Origin: Fructobacillus sp. EFB-N1 | GTDB lineage: Bacteria; Bacillota; Bacilli; Lactobacillales; Lactobacillaceae | NCBI RefSeq assembly: GCF_001038455.1 | Contig: NZ_LDUY01000006.1 | Coordinates: 1-64,000, forward strand | Direction: 5' to 3' | Length of the DNA stretch: 64,000 nt | In this document: positions 35,448 through 42,577 of the stretch, piece by piece | Layout of the letters: each line of letters starts with the position of its first letter | How positions within the stretch are numbered: position 1 is the stretch's first letter | Made by a program: the position numbers and the translations under genes | Notes under the pieces: generated by a model | Told to the model about the DNA's origin: nothing | Seen by the model: only the letters and a program-made list of their open reading frames with translations | Database searches by the model: none

Positions 35448-35473
35448 CATTGTGATTGAAGGAGGGGGAGACA

Positions 35474-36196
35474 ATGCTTGTTAGCCCAGCAATTCAAGAA
35501 AATTTTGATCAAGCAAAATCGATTGTTTTTATGACCGGAGCAGGGGTTTCGACCCTTTCTGGTATTCCAGATTATCGATCAAAAAATGGTGTTTATCAGG
35601 GACTCGACCTTGCGCCGGAGTATCTTTTGTCCGACCAGGCCTTTGCTGAAATCCCAGAAATTCAGTACAAATTTATGCAGGAAAATCTGTATTTTCCAGC
35701 TGCTAAGCCAAACTTTATTCATGAAAAGATGGCAGCTTTCACTAAGGTTGGCCGTGGCCGCATTATTACTCAGAATATTGATGATTTGGATATTGCTGCC
35801 GGTGCCCAAAAAGACCGACTGATTCGTTTTCACGGCTCGCTTTACGACTTGTATGTTCCTAAAGATGGCGCTAAGGCAACGTTGGCCGAGTACCAAAAAA
35901 GTCTGTATCGGTCGTCTGACCACGCCAAAATCAGGCCGGATATTACCTTCTATGGGGAGCAACCAAAGCACGTTGAAGAAACGATTTCCTGGGTACAGCA
36001 GGCTGATTTGGTCGTCGTTGTTGGGACGTCCTTTCGAGTCTATCCCTTTGCCGGACTTTTGGCTTATGCCAACCCAGCGGCAAAGTTAATGGCGGTTAAT
36101 TTGACTGCTATCCCGGTGCCGAGTCAGGTTGAGCAAATTGTGGGGGATGCGGGTCAGTTCTTTGAAGAACTGACGGTTAAGACCGCCTCTGAATGA
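35474..36196 (+). CDS. SIR2 family NAD-dependent protein deacylase lacking zinc cysteines
   Basis: A 240-residue sirtuin. MTGAGVSTLSGIPDYRS binds NAD, TQNIDDLD is the ribose block, FHGSLYD holds the catalytic His and VVVGTSFRVYPFAGLL the second NAD loop. Between FHGSLYD and DITFYGEQ, where most sirtuins have four zinc-binding cysteines, there is not one Cys. Activity therefore may be altered or the module is stabilised otherwise. GGAGGGGG precedes the ATG at 35474. Last gene of the ppx operon. Confidence 0.85.
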   Translation: MLVSPAIQENFDQAKSIVFMTGAGVSTLSGIPDYRSKNGVYQGLDLAPEYLLSDQAFAEIPEIQYKFMQENLYFPAAKPNFIHEKMAAFTKVGRGRIITQNIDDLDIAAGAQKDRLIRFHGSLYDLYVPKDGAKATLAEYQKSLYRSSDHAKIRPDITFYGEQPKHVEETISWVQQADLVVVVGTSFRVYPFAGLLAYANPAAKLMAVNLTAIPVPSQVEQIVGDAGQFFEELTVKTASE

Positions 36197-36214
36197 AAGT
36201 AAATGAGTTATTTT

Positions 36215-36246
36215 AAACCTTTGTCTTCAAGACGAAGGTTTTTTAT
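36215..36246 (+). terminator. terminator of ppx-mvaA-sirtuin operon
   Basis: AACCTTTGTCT, loop TCA, AGACGAAGGTT, then T run. Confidence 0.88.
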
Positions 36247-36295
36247 TTGTATTTTATATGAAAAAAGATTAATATGTTTTTCAGGAGGAAGTTTT

Positions 36296-37309
36296 ATGAC
36301 GAATGATCAAGGAGACAACCGGCAAAATGCCGCTGTTCATGCACCAAGAACACCGAGTCAACAAGAAACGCACGAACATCATCATGGGCATGCAGCACCG
36401 CAACAGTTATCACAAAAGCCCTATATTATCGGGATTACCGTAAATTTGATTTTTGTTTTAAGTGAGTTAGTCTTTGCGAAAATTGCCCACTCAACAGCCT
36501 TGTTTGCCGATGCCTTTCACAATCTTTCGGATGTGTTAGCGCTGGTCATTGCCTGGTTAGCGGTCCTCGTTTTTGCGATTAAGGCGACTAAAAAGAAGAC
36601 GTATGGCTGGCATAATGTATCGATTCTAGCTTCAATTTTTAATATGATTTTGTTGCTTTTTGCGGTTGGAACGATTTTTATTGAAGGGGTCCGCGACTTA
36701 ATTGCCCCGGGACAAGTTCATACAAATGGGACAATTATCACCATTGTGGCGGCAATTGGAATTGTGGTGAACTTGTCAACAGCTCTTTTGTTTAAGATTT
36801 CGGGTACGCCCGATGAACATGGCCACCAGCATGGCCAGGATTTAAATGCAAAAACAGCTTATCTACACTTATTATCGGATGCCGGGGTTTCAATTGGTGT
36901 CATCTTAGCTGGTTGGCTGATTGACCTAACTGGTTGGCAGCTGATTGATCCAATTGTATCGTTAATTATTGGGGTCATTATCTTGGCTTCTGCTTGGCCA
37001 GTCATGCGTGAAACGGTCAACCTGGCGATTAACGCGGTACCGGAGACAGTTAATGAGGTTGCCATCAGCGAGTATTTGGTCAACCAAGAAGGGGTGTTGG
37101 CCATGCACGACTTGCATATCTGGCCACTTTCAACTACCGAAACGGCGTTGACGGTCCATTTATCCGTTGATGATTACGTCTTTGATGACGACCACGGCCA
37201 GGATTTTTTAACTCGAATTGAGGATGATTTGAAAGCTGATTTTGCCATTCAACACGTCACAATTCAATTAGAAGCGGCCGAGCACAAAGAAAATTGTAAT
37301 GTGATTTAA
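36296..37309 (+). CDS. cation diffusion facilitator, zinc-type exporter (CzcD/ZitB-like)
   Basis: A 337-residue CDF protein with six helices. The two HxxxD metal sites in TM2 (HNLSDVLAL) and TM5 (HLLSDAGVS) are those of zinc-exporting members. The N-terminus has a His cluster (THEHHHGHAAPQ), and a second HEHGHQHGQD loop lies between TM4 and TM5. The C-terminal cytosolic domain reads MHDLHIWPLSTTETALTVHL. It exports zinc or similar cations with protons in exchange. AGGAGGAAG precedes the ATG at 36296. Confidence 0.9.
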   Translation: MTNDQGDNRQNAAVHAPRTPSQQETHEHHHGHAAPQQLSQKPYIIGITVNLIFVLSELVFAKIAHSTALFADAFHNLSDVLALVIAWLAVLVFAIKATKKKTYGWHNVSILASIFNMILLLFAVGTIFIEGVRDLIAPGQVHTNGTIITIVAAIGIVVNLSTALLFKISGTPDEHGHQHGQDLNAKTAYLHLLSDAGVSIGVILAGWLIDLTGWQLIDPIVSLIIGVIILASAWPVMRETVNLAINAVPETVNEVAISEYLVNQEGVLAMHDLHIWPLSTTETALTVHLSVDDYVFDDDHGQDFLTRIEDDLKADFAIQHVTIQLEAAEHKENCNVI

Positions 37310-37375
37310 GGGTGGTCGATTGGGCTGATTTACCCGATGAAGCCTTGAGTGAAGGTGAAATTTAATAAAAGAGAT

Positions 37376-37415
37376 AAAACGCCAAAATGACTGTTGTTAC
37401 GGCGTTTTTCTTTTG
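37376..37415 (+). terminator. terminator of CDF gene
   Basis: AAAACGCC / GGCGTTTT stem across a 16-base loop with T run. Confidence 0.75.
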
Positions 37416-37454
37416 AAATTTGAATCACTACCTGGCTGAAAAATCATTTTAGGG

Positions 37455-37482
37455 TTGACCTGAGCGCTCACCAGTGTATGAT
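37455..37482 (+). promoter_or_regulatory. promoter of mntH1 with palindrome in spacer
   Basis: TTGACC (37455-37460), 16-base spacer, TATGAT (37477-37482). The spacer holds the perfect palindrome TGAGCGCTCA (37461-37470), a possible repressor site. Confidence 0.7.
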
Positions 37483-37489
37483 TAACGAG

Positions 37490-37610
37490 AACTTAGGAAG
37501 ACCAATCGGGTTAACTAGCTTTCATAAGACTTCAAGTTTGTGCTTGGCGGACGTTATGAAAATTATTTAGCACTTGCATCCTTTTCGGCCAAAAAATTGT
37601 TGGCCTTTTC
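37490..37610 (+). ncRNA. structured leader RNA plus terminator upstream of mntH1 (riboswitch candidate)
   Basis: Shares with the mntH2 leader the blocks ACTTAGGAAGA (37491), TAGCTTTCATAAG (37515) and TTATGAAAATTATTTAGCACTTG (from 37554; written here as family blocks). TTTCATAA (37520-37527) pairs with TTATGAAA (37554-37561) around an inner CAAG/CTTG hairpin. A terminator GGCCAA (37587-37592) / TTGGCC (37600-37605) with T run follows, about 112 bases before the gene. This is the layout of a metal-sensing attenuator, but I know of no named family that it matches. Confidence 0.65.
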
Positions 37611-37721
37611 GGCATTTATTATATTTATACTGGCGCGAAAAGAAAATGATGATTTTCAAGACAATCTAATTCGTTTGACACCTTCCTGAGGAATCTAACT
37701 TTCCAAAGGAGAATCATTATC

Positions 37722-39125
37722 ATGATGGTACAACAAACCGCAGATAATCAGCCACATGGCGCATTGCTCATGCAAGGCGGCACTCAGAATAAAAGCTTGG
37801 AACAGGTGAACGGTACAATCGCCGTCCCGAAGTCCGGTTCGTTCTGGCGCCGCCTCCTCGCATTTTCAGGGCCGGGCGCATTAATCGCTGTCGGCTATAT
37901 GGACCCTGGCAATTGGGTGACATCCGTTCAGGGTGGGGCATCCTACCACTATCTCTTGATGTCGGTCGTGATGCTGTCAGCTGCTATTGGTATGCTGTTA
38001 CAGTATTTGGCTGGTAAATTAGGGATTGTAACCCAAGAAGATTTAGCACAGGCAACGGCTAAAAGAACGAAGAAGGCGACACGATATTTTCTCTGGTTCA
38101 TCACGGAGCTTGCCTTGATCGCAACAGATATTGCCGAAGTAGTTGGTGGGGCGATTGCCTTAAACTTGCTCTTTGGCTGGCCGCTCTTGCTGACCGTCAT
38201 CATGACGGCCTTTGATGTCATCTTATTGCTAGGGCTGATGAAGTTCGGCTTTCGTAAAATTGAAGCGATTGTCATGACCCTGATTTTAACGATTTTATTT
38301 GTTTGCTTATATTTGGTTTTCTTATCAAAACCTGATTTGGCAGGCGTATTTGGTGGCTTACTGCCACAAAAAGAAGTCCTTTCGACGCAGGCAATCCACG
38401 GATTGTCGAGCCCATTGTTCTTGACGGCAGGCATTATTGGTGCCACGGTGACACCGCACAACCTTTACTTGCATTCATCGATTGTTCAGACCCGCCAAGT
38501 TGATAAGGACAATCCTGCCGAAGTTAAAGAGGCGATTAAGTGGATGGCCTGGGATTCAAACGGCCAGTTGACCTTAGCCTTTATCGTCAATGCTTTGCTT
38601 TTAATCGTTGGAGCGGCTCTCTTTTATGGTCATGCCAACGAATTGGCATCATTCAAGGGCATGTACTTAGCTCTACAAAATCAGCAAATGGCGGGTGCAA
38701 TCGCATCGCCATTTCTCTCAACGCTGTTTGCGGTTGCGCTGCTGGCATCCGGACAAAATTCAACCATTACTGGTACCTTAGCCGGTGAAATCATCATGGA
38801 AGGTTTCTTACACTTTAAGATTCCGATGTGGTTGCGTCGCGTAATTACACGTGGCGTCGCGCTCATACCAGTGATTGCTATTGCTGTTTTGTATGGAGGT
38901 AACGAGCATGATTTGGATGCTTTGATTACTGGGACTCAAGTTTTTCTCTCCGTTGTTTTGCCATTTTCGATGGCACCGCTCCTGTATTTCACTTCCTCAA
39001 AGAAAATCATGGGGCAGTTTGTGAATAAAAAGAGCGTGACCGTCATTGGTTGGCTCTGCTTTATTGTTCTAACTGTGATTAATATTTGGCTGGTTTTGGA
39101 ACAAATGGGTCAGTGGTTTGGTTAG
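37722..39125 (+). CDS. mntH: Nramp family divalent metal transporter, paralogue 1 with Met-to-Thr in TM6
   Basis: A 467-residue Nramp protein with eleven or twelve helices. TM1 has the metal motif DPGN ([11 protein letters not shown]). TM6 reads [14 protein letters not shown]: the His is kept, but residue 244 is Thr where manganese and iron transporters have a metal-binding Met. In structurally studied Nramps this Met helps exclude calcium and magnesium, so this copy may have broader or different selectivity. AAAGGAG precedes the ATG. It is a separate unit from mntH2, with its own promoter and leader RNA. Confidence 0.9.
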   Translation: MMVQQTADNQPHGALLMQGGTQNKSLEQVNGTIAVPKSGSFWRRLLAFSGPGALIAVGYMDPGNWVTSVQGGASYHYLLMSVVMLSAAIGMLLQYLAGKLGIVTQEDLAQATAKRTKKATRYFLWFITELALIATDIAEVVGGAIALNLLFGWPLLLTVIMTAFDVILLLGLMKFGFRKIEAIVMTLILTILFVCLYLVFLSKPDLAGVFGGLLPQKEVLSTQAIHGLSSPLFLTAGIIGATVTPHNLYLHSSIVQTRQVDKDNPAEVKEAIKWMAWDSNGQLTLAFIVNALLLIVGAALFYGHANELASFKGMYLALQNQQMAGAIASPFLSTLFAVALLASGQNSTITGTLAGEIIMEGFLHFKIPMWLRRVITRGVALIPVIAIAVLYGGNEHDLDALITGTQVFLSVVLPFSMAPLLYFTSSKKIMGQFVNKKSVTVIGWLCFIVLTVINIWLVLEQMGQWFG

Positions 39126-39265
39126 GAAAAACGACAATGATTCTGATTTAATTTAGAATAATTCCTGTTTTTATTGTGAAAAATCAGAGGAAACCACAAA
39201 AAGATTAAGTGAATTTTAAATCATTGTTATTCGTTAAGCCTTGGTATAAAAGCCTTTTGGCCAAA

Positions 39266-39290
39266 AATGTTGCAATAGGTTTGCAACATT
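39266..39290. promoter_or_regulatory. perfect 10-bp inverted repeat upstream of mntH2 promoter
   Basis: AATGTTGCAA (39266-39275) and TTGCAACATT (39281-39290), spacer 5 bases, 13 bases before the -35. Strong operator candidate; mntH1 has no copy. Confidence 0.6.
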
Positions 39291-39303
39291 ACAAAAATAT
39301 CAC

Positions 39304-39331
39304 TTGACCTTAGAATTGTCAGGTGTAATAT
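39304..39331 (+). promoter_or_regulatory. promoter of mntH2
   Basis: TTGACC (39304-39309), 16-base spacer, TAATAT (39326-39331), same -35 and spacing as the mntH1 promoter. CACTTGAC and GTCAGGTG form a near-perfect dyad across it. Confidence 0.7.
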
Positions 39332-39339
39332 TTACTATA

Positions 39340-39506
39340 GACTTAGGAAGAAGTTATTGAGTTAAGTAGCTTTCATAAGCTTTCAACAACCAAGTTGAAT
39401 GAAATCCTTTATGAAAATTATTTAGCACTTGAAAAAAACAACACGTGGTAGACGGACCAGTCTGCCTAAATTTCAATGAGGTCAGGGTGGCAGACTGCCC
39501 TTTTTG
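39340..39506 (+). ncRNA. structured leader RNA plus terminator upstream of mntH2-usp (riboswitch candidate)
   Basis: Carries the same conserved blocks as the mntH1 leader in the same order. TTTCATAA (39371-39378) pairs with TTATGAAA (39409-39416), and the inner hairpin is TTCAAC (39382-39387) / GTTGAA (39394-39399), different bases but same fold as in mntH1. A terminator CAGTCTGCC (39458-39466) / GGCAGACTG (39489-39497) with CCC and five T follows, 71 bases before the gene. A relation to the published lacto-usp motif is possible because a usp gene follows, but unproven. Confidence 0.65.
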
Positions 39507-39576
39507 CTTTGGTCATTTTTTTCGAGTGAGAATTTGATTGCTTCGTCCCTAAGGAGAATTCCGAAGGAGAGATATT

Positions 39577-40965
39577 ATGGATAATCCCGTAAAGAAGAGC
39601 CATTCTCTTATCGAACACACGGGCGATAAGAGTTTGGAAGAAGTAAACGGCACAATTGAAGTGCCAAAGGGCGCCCCTTTCTGGCGGCGTTTGATGGCTT
39701 TCTCAGGACCTGGGGCCCTGGTTGCCGTTGGTTACATGGATCCAGGTAACTGGGTCACGTCAGTAGCCGGTGGTGCTTCTTACCACTACTTGTTGCTGTC
39801 AATTGTTTTGATTTCTTCACTGATTGCGATGCTTTTGCAATACATGGCTGGTAAGTTGGGTATTGTCAAGCAAGAAGATTTGGCTCAGGCTACTGGAAAC
39901 CGGACGAACAAGTTTGGCCGCTACTCACTCTGGATTATGACGGAGTTAGCGCTGATTGCGACGGATATTGCCGAAGTTGTCGGTGGTGCCATCGCCTTGA
40001 ACTTGCTCTTTGGTTGGCCACTTTTGGTCACAGTGTTCTTGACGGCCTTTGATGTTATCTTGCTGTTGATGCTGATGAAGTTTGGTTTCCGCAAAATTGA
40101 AGCGATTGTTATGACTTTGATTATGACCATCTTGGTTGTCTTCATTTACTTAACAATCTTGTCAAAGCCTGACTGGGCATCATTGTTCTATGGCTACGTG
40201 CCACAACCAAAGGTAATTTCACCTGAATCACTTAAGGGCTTGCAAAGTCCTTTGATCTTGACTGCTGGTATCATTGGTGCCACGGTTATGCCACACAACT
40301 TGTACTTGCACTCATCAATCTCACAAACTCGTAAGGTTGATCACGAAAACCCAGAAGAAGTTCATGATGCTGTGCGTTTGATGACTTGGGACTCAAACAT
40401 CCAATTGACGTTGGCCTTTGTGGTTAACACTTTGCTTTTGGTTGTTGGTGCTGCTTTGTTCTTCGGACATGCTCAAGAATTGGATTCGTTTAAGGCAATG
40501 TACAACGCCTTGGGTGACTCAAAGATTGCCGGTGCAATTGCATCACCAATCTTGTCAACGTTGTTTGCCCTTGCCTTGTTGGCTTCTGGACAAAACTCAA
40601 CGATCACTGGTACTTTGACTGGTGAAATTATCATGGAAGGTTTCTTGCACTTGCGTGTGCCAATGTGGCTCCGTCGTGTTATTACCCGTGGAATCGCCTT
40701 GGTTCCAGTTTTGGCTATTACCATTATTTACGGTGGTAACGAGGCCCAGTTAGATAACCTGATTACTGCCACACAGGTCTTCTTGTCAATTGCCCTGCCA
40801 TTCTCAATGGCACCATTAATCTACTTTACTTCTTCAAAGAAGATTATGGGCGAATATGCTAACAGTAAGTGGATTACTTGGACTGGTTGGATTTGTTTTG
40901 CTGTCTTGACTGCCATCAACATTTGGTTGGTTCTTGACCAATTCTTCCCACAATACTTCGGATAA
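39577..40965 (+). CDS. mntH: Nramp family manganese transporter, paralogue 2
   Basis: A 462-residue Nramp protein with [11 protein letters not shown] in TM1 and the canonical [14 protein letters not shown] in TM6 (Met238), so it should be the ordinary proton-coupled manganese importer. Codon use is markedly more biased (TTG, GGT, AAG) than in mntH1, suggesting higher expression. GAAGGAGAG precedes the ATG. A usp gene follows 56 bases later without a terminator between. Confidence 0.92.
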
Positions 40966-41021: not shown

Positions 41022-41483
41022 ATGGCTGAATTAAAATTAGATGTAGAACCAAAGCAATTTAAGACAATTCTTGTTGGTGTTGATGAATCAGAACAAGGCT
41101 ATCACGCCTTGTCGAACGCGATTCACCAAGCCCGTGAAGATGATGCACAATTAATTATTGCAACAATTTTGGAAATGGGTGATTTGTCAACGATTTCCGC
41201 TTTGCACTTAGACTTCATCAAGGAAAAGCGTCAAGAATTGGAAAACAATCTGGCTAAGTACCGTGATTACGCACTTTCAAAAGGTTTGAAGAACGTGAAG
41301 GTTGTCTTCGATGATGGTATCAAGGCTGGTGAAATCTTGAATGATGAAATCGCACCACAGGTTGGGGCTGATTTGATCGTAGTTGGGGCTCACTCACATG
41401 AAGGCTTCTTTGAATCAATCGGTTCACAGGCTGCTTACATTGCCCGCAACGCTAAGATTTCTGTTTTGATCGTTAAGGATTAA
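41022..41483 (+). CDS. universal stress protein A family
   Basis: A 153-residue UspA domain protein. ILVGVDESEQGYHALSNAI opens the fold and VVGAHSHEGFFESIGSQAAYIARNA is the ATP-binding G-2x-G-9x-G(S) motif, so it should be of the ATP-binding class. It is co-transcribed with mntH2, a link between manganese uptake and stress seen in lactic acid bacteria where manganese protects against oxygen. GGAGG precedes the ATG. Confidence 0.88.
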   Translation: MAELKLDVEPKQFKTILVGVDESEQGYHALSNAIHQAREDDAQLIIATILEMGDLSTISALHLDFIKEKRQELENNLAKYRDYALSKGLKNVKVVFDDGIKAGEILNDEIAPQVGADLIVVGAHSHEGFFESIGSQAAYIARNAKISVLIVKD

Positions 41484-41601: not shown

Positions 41602-42219
41602 ATGACAGCGACATTGATCACAGGATTTTTTTCATATTTAGGAACAACATCTGACTACTTTGTAATTTTAGTTTTACTGTTTGCCACTTTTCGCAAGAAG
41701 TCGCAGGTGCGGCCGATCATTCTTGGCGCCTACCTCGGCAATGCTCTTTTAGTTGGGGCAGCTTTGCTGATTGGTGGGGTGCTAAAACAAATACCAGCTG
41801 AGTGGATTTTAGGTCTCCTGGGTCTGGTGCCGGTTGCTATCGGTGTAAAAAATTATTTCTCAAATGAGGAAGAAGAGGAGGGTGAGGCTTTTATTACCAA
41901 GGTCCAAGAAACGCCCAATCAGCGGATTGTTTTGACGGTCATTTTGATGACCATTGCTGGCTGTGGTGCCGATAACTTAGCGCTCTACATTCCTTATTTC
42001 TCGCTAGCTAATTGGGCAGCCTTACCAATCATCTTTTTGATGTTTACAGCAATTTTGACAATTTGCATTTTTTCGGCTTACCGATTGGCGAAGGTGCAGA
42101 AGGTTCAAGATCTTTTTGAACGCTATGGTGATTTAATGCAATTGCTAGTCTATGTGGCCCTGGGTATTTACATTTTATTTGATGCTGGAACAGTGACACA
42201 TTTACTTTCCTTGTTATAA
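41602..42219 (+). CDS. cadD: CadD family cadmium resistance transporter
   Basis: A 205-residue membrane protein with about five helices. TTSDYFVILVLLFA and CGADNLALYIPYF are the paired acidic-residue motifs of the CadD/LysE-like family, and an acidic loop (EEEEEGEA) lies in the middle. It confers cadmium (and perhaps zinc) resistance by export. AAAGGAG precedes the ATG. Its repressor gene follows after seven bases. Confidence 0.88.
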   Translation: MTATLITGFFSYLGTTSDYFVILVLLFATFRKKSQVRPIILGAYLGNALLVGAALLIGGVLKQIPAEWILGLLGLVPVAIGVKNYFSNEEEEEGEAFITKVQETPNQRIVLTVILMTIAGCGADNLALYIPYFSLANWAALPIIFLMFTAILTICIFSAYRLAKVQKVQDLFERYGDLMQLLVYVALGIYILFDAGTVTHLLSLL

Positions 42220-42226
42220 TAGGGAT

Positions 42227-42577
42227 ATGAAAAAAGATGTCCAACATGAATTGAGTATAATTTTCAAATTGCTGGGGTCGGAAAGGCGTCTGGCGATTTT
42301 AGCCCTGTTGCGCGAGAAGCCTTGTTCGGTTTCTGAAATCGTGGACCAGCTCTCGATGGAGCAGTCTGCCGTTTCTCATCAGCTACAAATGCTGCGAGAG
42401 GCGCAAGTCGTGACGGTGGAAAAAGTAGGGCGGTCCGTCTACTACCAGCTGAACGATTCCCATATCTTAACCTTACTCAATAATGCCGAGCATCACGTGG
42501 ACCACGTTTTGCGGCAAATGAGCCACGCTGAAGCGGTGGCTGAAGAGCAAGCTGAAACCAAGAAAAATCGTCAATAA
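42227..42577 (+). CDS. ArsR/SmtB family metal-sensing repressor, CzrA-like
   Basis: A 116-residue winged helix protein: CSVSEIVDQLSMEQSAVSHQLQMLREAQVV is the recognition helix-turn-helix and RSVYYQLND the wing. The last helix has Asp-x-His (NDSHIL) and His-x-x-His (AEHHVDH), the alpha5 sensor site of CzrA/SmtB, which detects zinc, cobalt or cadmium. There is no CVC-type alpha3 site. It should repress cadD and itself from the twin sites at 41534-41585. Confidence 0.88.
   Translation: MKKDVQHELSIIFKLLGSERRLAILALLREKPCSVSEIVDQLSMEQSAVSHQLQMLREAQVVTVEKVGRSVYYQLNDSHILTLLNNAEHHVDHVLRQMSHAEAVAEEQAETKKNRQ

Follow-up and report, generated by a model that had tools for sequence, protein, structure and literature searches.

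Two tandem genes for Nramp transporters, mntH1 and mntH2, lie in the window analyzed here, which is the whole 64,000-nucleotide stretch at positions 1 to 64,000 of contig NZ_LDUY01000006.1 from Fructobacillus sp. EFB-N1 (assembly GCF_001038455.1). Each gene is preceded by a promoter-like sequence and a long leader, and these leaders, as candidate cis-regulatory RNAs, are the subject of this report. Both leaders hold a core arm composed of helices P2 and P3, which is enclosed by the two strands of a long-range helix, P1, whose 3′ strand lies beside the Shine–Dalgarno (SD) sequence. The features of the locus are as follows, with + denoting the forward strand.

37455–37482, +: promoter-like sequence TTGACC-16-TATGAT before mntH1, with 10 of 12 consensus matches; the transcript is expected to start near 37489.
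37492–37509, +: 5′ strand of P1 in the mntH1 leader, with CTTAGGAAG at 37492–37500 and CAATCGG at 37503–37509.
37510–37571, +: core arm P2/P3 of the mntH1 leader, type 1, in which P3 and the internal loop differ from type 2.
37587–37609, +: terminator-like hairpin GGCCAA/TTGGCC followed by TTTT in the mntH1 leader, between the core and the P1 3′ strand; weak and not called by the terminator scan.
37671–37690, +: 3′ strand of P1 in the mntH1 leader, with TCGTTTG at 37671–37677 and CTTCCTGAG at 37682–37690.
37705–37711, +: SD sequence AAAGGAG of mntH1; five of its seven bases are paired in the predicted local hairpin, and all five partners lie within the P1 3′ strand.
37722–39125, +: mntH1, Nramp transporter of 467 amino acids (Pfam PF01566, E 2.6e-102).
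39304–39331, +: promoter-like sequence TTGACC-16-TAATAT before mntH2, with 9 of 12 consensus matches.
39342–39360, +: 5′ strand of P1 in the mntH2 leader (L022), forming 16 pairs with the post-core segment in the minimum-free-energy (MFE) fold.
39361–39426, +: core arm P2/P3 of the mntH2 leader, type 2.
39484–39501, +: terminator-like hairpin followed by TTTTTGC in the mntH2 leader, between the core and the P1 3′ strand; not conserved.
39533–39553, +: 3′ strand of P1 in the mntH2 leader, overlapping the anti-SD strand (L022).
39563–39569, +: SD sequence GAAGGAG of mntH2; four of seven bases are locally paired in the prediction, three of them with partners in the P1 3′ strand (L022).
39577–40965, +: mntH2, Nramp transporter of 462 amino acids (PF01566, E 3.8e-105).
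41022–41483, +: universal stress protein gene 3′ of mntH2 (Pfam PF00582), probably in one operon with it.

The original prediction, made from this stretch alone, held that the two leaders share a covarying, riboswitch-like structure. The blocks on which it relied do occur in the same order in both leaders, 3′ of the promoter-like sequences: CTTAGGAAGA at 37492 and 39342, TAGCTTTCATAAG at 37516 and 39367, and TTATGAAAATTATTTAGCACTTG at 37554 and 39409. Pairing of TTTCATAA with TTATGAAA is present in both, and the inner hairpin pairs in each leader with different letters, CAAG/CTTG (37533–37536/37543–37546) before mntH1 and TTCAAC/GTTGAA (39382–39387/39394–39399) before mntH2. What had been overlooked is P1, as CTTAGGAAGA is one strand of this long-range helix and its partner adjoins the SD sequence. 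Allowing up to three mismatches, the 22-mer that ends the core, TATGAAAATTATTTAGCACTTG, was found at only these two sites in the 1.64 Mb genome, with none in a backwards control. The folding energy of five stretches was unremarkable (z –0.07 to –1.99). Single-stretch folding energy is thus not telling, and the evidence for a leader RNA is comparative.

In order to examine the distribution of the core, a covariance model (R1; 11 sequences, 22 base pairs) was searched against 397 Lactobacillaceae genomes. The core was present in 57 of them, with 67 matches in 7 of 40 genera. The mntH2 core scored 109.4 bits by construction, being a member of the R1 seed, and the mntH1 core matched at 37500–37576 with 41.9 bits (E 2.4e-5). 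A second model built from 80 rows (R2) gave the mntH1 core 56.6 bits (E 6.5e-9), the mntH1 row itself having been used in building it. All 13 Fructobacillus genomes searched (g1) carry the core, five of them in two copies (G000, G001, G002, G005 and G012), and the mntH2 protein of G002 is 99.8% identical to that of the window over 451 residues. Within Weissella (g32), the RNA is present in 21 of 28 genomes. Leaving aside the window's own mntH1, the downstream gene on the same strand is mntH at 64 of the remaining 66 loci and a DyP-type peroxidase at the other two (L080 and L081). The mntH gene itself was found in 19 of 19 genomes checked, 13 without the RNA and six with it.

A degenerate core pattern, chosen from the alignment regardless of mntH, matched 53 stretches in 84,980 species genomes, every one of them in Lactobacillaceae (Weissella, Leuconostoc, Fructobacillus, Convivina, two Paucilactobacillus and a few more). 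The downstream gene is mntH in 46 and DyP in three, all from W. confusa; of the remaining four, three end too soon for assignment and one (L114) lies in the scrambled FS54 assembly. A 66% complete genome (G720) with scrambled pieces was excluded. R2, run with stricter filters on 395 genomes sampled across the order, matched in ten, of which eight are Lactobacillaceae. The two marginal matches outside the family (G493 and G630, E 0.01–0.02) look false, as they fall in a palindromic stretch or in DNA resembling a protein gene, and neither mntH nor DyP lies nearby. Exact pattern matches were absent from viral contigs, and among plasmids one record carries the mntH2 leader and none the mntH1 leader. 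The 5.6 kb W. cibaria plasmid pNH9449-5 (NZ_CP061507.1, L020) bears the leader RNA and four annotated genes. Two of these are for an Nramp transporter and a universal stress protein, the others for a hypothetical protein and a GNAT acetyltransferase.

The expectation that such a leader would recur before mntH in other genomes was thus borne out by the family-wide search, together with the covariation of P2/P3 given below. As mntH1 and mntH2 are adjacent paralogues with 75% identity, their leaders could in principle resemble each other without function, as a remnant of tandem duplication. However, this explanation is refuted by conservation and covariation over seven genera, with the DNA between the core and the gene largely unconserved, and its probability is negligible.

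Some loci depart from the common arrangement. A DyP-type heme peroxidase follows the same RNA at L080, L081, L091, L121 and L130 (Weissella confusa and G411), and by eye the next gene at L130 resembles an MFS transporter. A third, more distant mntH with 63% identity and no match to the RNA models is present at G397:C21:16365-17681 (L175) and G411:C1:1890819-1892138 (L176). In one genome without the RNA, mntH carries one in-frame TAA and lies about 0.5 kb from a DtxR/MntR-type gene (L156, G254:C25). On contig JQAY01000009 of W. confusa DSM 20196 (L111/L191), the RNA-preceded mntH matches only query residues of about 6–61 and 231–454, as if its inner part were gone.

The core arm was examined in an alignment (A4) of 80 rows, 56 of them distinct, with 79 sources hand-picked from the loci at about one per genome. 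Across the 56 distinct sequences, 96.7% of the P2/P3 cells hold standard pairs and 7 of the 22 pairs show double changes. These values were reached by none or one of 500 shuffles, and in slid registers just 31.5–54.1% of cells are paired. In P2, UUUCAUAA/UUAUGAAA is replaced by AUUCAUAA/UUAUGAAU (L013, identical to L040), GUCAUAA/UUAUGAC (L020) or UCAAAA/UUUUGA (L057), and P3 occurs as CAAC/GUUG, CAAUC/GAUUG (L085), CAAG/CUUG (mntH1) or CAACUAAC/GUUAGUUG (L076). The P3 loop varies freely, and the conserved feature of type 2 cores is the internal loop AAGCU / YGAAA..YCUU, which would offer a natural site for a sensor. An alternative extension of P3, pairing UUUCA of P2 with UGAAA after P3, was seen by eye in type 2 and set aside, being lost where P2 begins with AGUCAUAA. 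The core arm is therefore part of a conserved, structured 5′-leader RNA with compensatory base changes, as in riboswitches.

The P2 3′ strand of both window leaders also contains a short reading frame, ATG AAA ATT ATT TAG (MKII), at 37556–37570 and 39411–39425. If translated, this leader peptide could control the downstream gene, and its ATG and an in-frame stop (TAG or TAA) four codons on are indeed retained in almost all aligned cores. However, no SD-like sequence precedes the ATG by eye, the ATG is itself paired in P2, and in L057 the compensatory change in P2 turns ATG into TTG with the helix retained. The frame is probably conserved only because the P2 helix is kept, and control by a leader peptide is extremely unlikely.

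P1 joins the two ends of the leader. In the mntH1 leader, CTTAGGAAG at the 5′ end of the mRNA pairs with CTTCCTGAG beside the SD sequence, and further pairs extend up to the core, giving 17 pairs between the 5′ and post-core segments in the MFE fold. The same two segments pair in 30 of 30 leaders folded. Other leaders form P1 in the same two places with other sequences, including AAUAGCCGA/UCGGCUAUU (L036), GUGAGGAG/CUCCUCAC (L076), UAAGCGA/UCGCUUA (L057) and GGCGG/CCGCC before a DyP gene (L080). By eye, many leaders could alternatively fold the 5′ segment into a hairpin of its own, for example GACUU..AAGUC in Fructobacillus or CGGG..CCCG in Weissella. Additionally, in many of the Leuconostoc leaders L043–L050, L055, L062 and L063, a long helix, AAUACGUGUUUAG/CUAAAUGCGUAUU, seems by eye to make up a second arm in the interval between the core and the P1 3′ strand.

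A script assigned starts to 67 leaders and none to L086, which stands outside the P1 and SD tests. The leaders comprise 63 distinct sequences, of which 51 entered the group tests after 12 near-copies were left out, and 16 groups were drawn by hand from leader similarity. As the P1 energy of single leaders lacked power, a swap test between groups was used. Own partners outpaired swapped partners in 118 of 120 group pairs, with a mean double difference of –10.4 kcal/mol, a value that none of 20,000 permutations equaled. A separate test for compensatory changes used 51 leaders in five sets, partly other leaders than those of the group tests, and found compensatory P1 pair types in four sets, the mntH1-type set included; the Weissella set is poorly aligned, with four P1 pairs. 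Comparison between sequences thus shows P1 as it does P2 and P3, along with the conservation of the RNA and its association with mntH.

The P1 3′ strand appears to have a second potential partner. In the mntH1 leader its CTTCCT doubles as the anti-SD strand, and when the last 70 bases of each leader are folded alone, 45 of 51 leaders have three or more SD bases paired. The P1 3′ strand supplies at least two of the partner bases in 41 of these 45, compared with a fraction of 0.60 when foreign 5′ segments are used; in 42 of the 45, the leader's own P1 lies directly against the core, versus a fraction of 0.55 with foreign segments. The predicted SD hairpin and P1 would therefore exclude each other. 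The DyP leader L080 also shows P1 and the SD hairpin as rivals for one strand.

The original prediction had placed an intrinsic terminator in each leader and proposed transcription attenuation. One such hairpin stands, the consensus match in the mntH2 leader (39484–39501); the mntH1 hairpin, with its four-T tail, was not called. Terminator-like sites in 37380–39600 number three, against 2.5 (standard deviation 1.8) in shuffled sequence. The rule used, an unbroken stem with a loop of 3–8 bases, is strict, so that its count of 4 terminator-like hairpins in 51 leaders is a lower bound. All four belong to the Fructobacillus mntH2-type group, and none was found in the other 15 groups. By this simple rule, the leaders as a set have no conserved GC-rich hairpin with a U-run before the gene, as an intrinsic-terminator attenuator would.

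For attenuation by a hairpin between the core and the gene speak the mntH2 terminator, its counterparts in four of nine Fructobacillus mntH2-type leaders (L035 included), and the Salmonella mntH leader, which is reported to work in this way in the passages cited (PMC9315381). It is possible in some Fructobacillus leaders, but with terminators so rare overall and no more frequent in the window than expected from shuffles, we consider it very unlikely as the mechanism of this RNA. The rarity of terminators and the predicted competition of P1 with the SD hairpin instead point to control at translation initiation, and a translational switch is the best-supported mechanism, on moderate evidence from the predicted folds.

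On the basis of these features, each mntH leader would act as one cis-regulatory RNA reaching from the 5′ end of the transcript to the SD sequence. It would consist of a conserved arm (P2, an asymmetric internal loop and P3), a second arm or interval that varies (P4), and P1 enclosing both and ending just 5′ of the SD sequence, with the distal part of the P1 3′ strand able to pair alternatively with the SD sequence. With P1 formed, the SD sequence would be free and translation on; with P1 open, the SD sequence would be held in the local hairpin and translation off. Sensing would probably fall to the P2/P3 arm, with Mn2+ or a related divalent metal as the likely signal, acting in feedback on import. 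We infer the switching, its ligand and its direction from these structures and from the genes controlled. Such a leader would be a compact switch in which the 5′ end of the mRNA itself releases the SD sequence.

Mn2+ serves lactic acid bacteria as a cofactor and antioxidant. The downstream genes, which encode Nramp transporters at 64 of 66 loci, would fit a riboswitch if its ligand is Mn2+ or another Nramp substrate. The surroundings of mntH in the window are a metal-handling neighborhood: a SIR2 protein and a cation-efflux (CDF) transporter are encoded upstream of mntH1 (35456–37309), and a Cad cadmium transporter and an ArsR-type regulator follow the universal stress gene (41602–42577). Of the 397 family genomes, 292 have the DtxR/MntR C-terminal domain (PF02742); among RNA-bearing genomes these are just 13 of 57, versus 279 of 340 among the others (Fisher p 2.4e-18, uncorrected for phylogeny). 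The domain was absent from all 13 RNA-bearing Fructobacillus and all 19 RNA-bearing Leuconostoc (g30) genomes. In the Weissella sample, 10 of 18 RNA-bearing and 7 of 7 RNA-less genomes have the domain, and none of the 25 lacks both (Fisher p 0.057). No yybP-ykoY match above cut-off was found in 121 family genomes; two weak ones fell in genus g47, and control genomes behaved as expected.

Metal sensing is therefore better founded than when first proposed, since 44 of the 57 RNA-bearing genomes have no detectable DtxR/MntR C-terminal domain. Together, this frequent absence of MntR and the control of Mn importers, joined in the W. confusa group by a heme peroxidase, point to Mn2+ or a related divalent metal as the likely signal, and a sensor of Mn2+ or Fe2+ in place of MntR is plausible. 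The RNA is thus a candidate metal sensor in bacteria that mostly lack the usual protein sensor, and it makes the regulation of Mn uptake in Fructobacillus and Leuconostoc without MntR and yybP-ykoY a directly testable question. As far as the cited passages go, a regulon survey with two Leuconostocaceae genomes predicted that MntR controls mntH in Streptococcaceae (PMC3616900). One of the main ways in which lactobacilli exert bioprotection in fermented milk is reported to be the depletion of free manganese (PMC7082583).

The same translational switch might answer to a signal other than metal, such as peroxide, heme, pH or another stress cue that raises Mn import and peroxidase, with the ligand stabilizing P1 in an ON switch. 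P1 looks like the ON state and is predicted to be stable, as in ligand-ON switches; the sole other regulated gene found encodes a DyP heme peroxidase; and a universal stress gene follows mntH2. Nevertheless, a non-metal signal sits poorly with Nramp importers at nearly all loci and would leave unfilled the metal-sensing gap in the genomes without the DtxR/MntR domain, and we regard it as rather unlikely. Alternatively, the leader could sense no ligand itself and serve as a site for a regulatory protein or a small RNA, or set mRNA stability. The P2/P3 arm with its conserved asymmetric internal loop could be a protein site. However, genes of two unrelated kinds follow the RNA, and on the 5.6 kb plasmid that also carries it, to which the look for partners was confined, none of the four annotated genes is an obvious partner. 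We judge this explanation unlikely.

Several observations weigh against metal feedback through a translational switch. The predicted hiding of the SD sequence is modest, with a mean unpaired probability of 0.38 versus 0.47 with shuffled upstream sequence, although it is lower in 42 of 51 leaders. Fewer than three SD bases are paired in L051 and in the five leaders of the W. kandleri-like group, which have P1 and at most two paired SD bases; without a predicted SD hairpin, this group must work differently or less directly. L023, L058, L073 and L083 pair their SD bases with positions other than the P1 strand. The fold with P1 formed, which is presumed to be ON, is at the same time the one predicted by default, lying 2.3 to 14.2 kcal/mol below the P1-less fold in 30 leaders (a calculation without a shuffle control), so that metal feedback would need the ligand to disfavor, or open, P1.

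For P1 itself, own partners held no advantage over foreign ones in the single-leader groups B2 (L. fallax, L040) and C3 (W. muntiaci, L073), and in the Fructobacillus mntH2-type set P1 varies on one side only, with no double change. Judged leader by leader, P1 energy was better than in 5′ shuffles (p < 0.05) for just 13 of 63 leaders, and better than in 3′ shuffles for 17 of 63; the case for P1 thus rests on co-variation and not on energy. For the core arm, the alignment had been fitted to the structure, and the register slid by +1 has 28 double-change cells, close to the 32 of the true one, although pairing in the slid register falls to 39.3% of cells. As for metal sensing, 13 genomes hold both the RNA and an MntR-type domain, and the association with MntR tracks the Leuconostoc/Fructobacillus lineage and hence reflects few independent events. 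Fur-family proteins, found in 32 of 37 genomes tested, occur in 14 of 15 RNA-bearing genomes without MntR (the exception being G183), and a metal regulator other than MntR is therefore possible.

A separate feature of the W. kandleri-like leaders (L057, L060, L069, L070 and L072), noted by eye, is that the core is followed by a further conserved domain, GACCG..CGGACAGGUUAG..ACCGGUAGAACUCGC.

Considering both sides, we grade the evidence as good for the structure, moderate for the translational switch and circumstantial for metal sensing, and the full model of the mntH leader as a translational switch with metal feedback has a slightly better than even chance of being right. A bolder version is tentative, with a probability somewhat short of even. 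In it, the leader would be a new Mn2+ (or Fe2+) riboswitch class that exerts translational feedback on the importer, took over or shared the job of MntR in the Leuconostoc–Weissella–Fructobacillus group, spread to a plasmid and came to be used by a DyP peroxidase gene. It would work by strand exchange between local hairpins, at the SD sequence and (by eye) at the mRNA 5′ end, and the long-range helix around the sensor arm.

Finally, the leaders were compared with known RNA families. An Rfam 15 scan of the window at gathering scores returned three tRNAs and nothing else, and a scan of 37300–39600 with E up to 5 gave two chance snoRNA matches only. No covariance-model match to the M-box, NiCo or other Rfam metal riboswitches, lacto-usp (RF01710) or yybP-ykoY (RF00080) was found in the window or leaders. 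The original prediction was right to separate the leader from yybP-ykoY, whereas its suggested kinship with lacto-usp found no support, RF01710 being absent among leader matches up to E 5. No prior description of this mntH leader RNA, and no experiment on it, was found in open-access PMC text, the scope of that search lying short of subscription papers and preprints. The leader RNA is a real element outside Rfam 15, known from one bacterial lineage.

The known systems nearest to it differ in several respects, as far as the cited passages describe them. The Lacto-usp motif is likewise from Lactobacillales and of uncertain cis-regulatory role (PMC2864571), but gave no match to the window or leaders in the Rfam scans. 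The M-box Mg2+ riboswitch is a metal-sensing leader that can precede an Nramp-related gene; however, it has no match here, M-box/Nramp RNAs occur mostly in Clostridia and Deltaproteobacteria, and the genes tested there move Mg2+ (PMC4072509). The yybP-ykoY RNA is also a cis-acting RNA before Mn-homeostasis genes, and at mntP, Mn2+ is said to stabilize a fold that keeps the ribosome-binding site from being sequestered (PMC9315381); unlike it, the mntH leader serves an importer and combines a long-range P1 with one conserved arm. The Salmonella mntH 5′ untranslated region, described as an Mn2+ riboswitch (Shi et al. 2014, as cited in PMC9315381), shares the proposed Mn2+ feedback on the mntH importer. 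By its description rather than by sequence, it is set apart through a Rho-independent terminator, whereas the present RNA was confined to Lactobacillaceae in our searches and points to control of translation.

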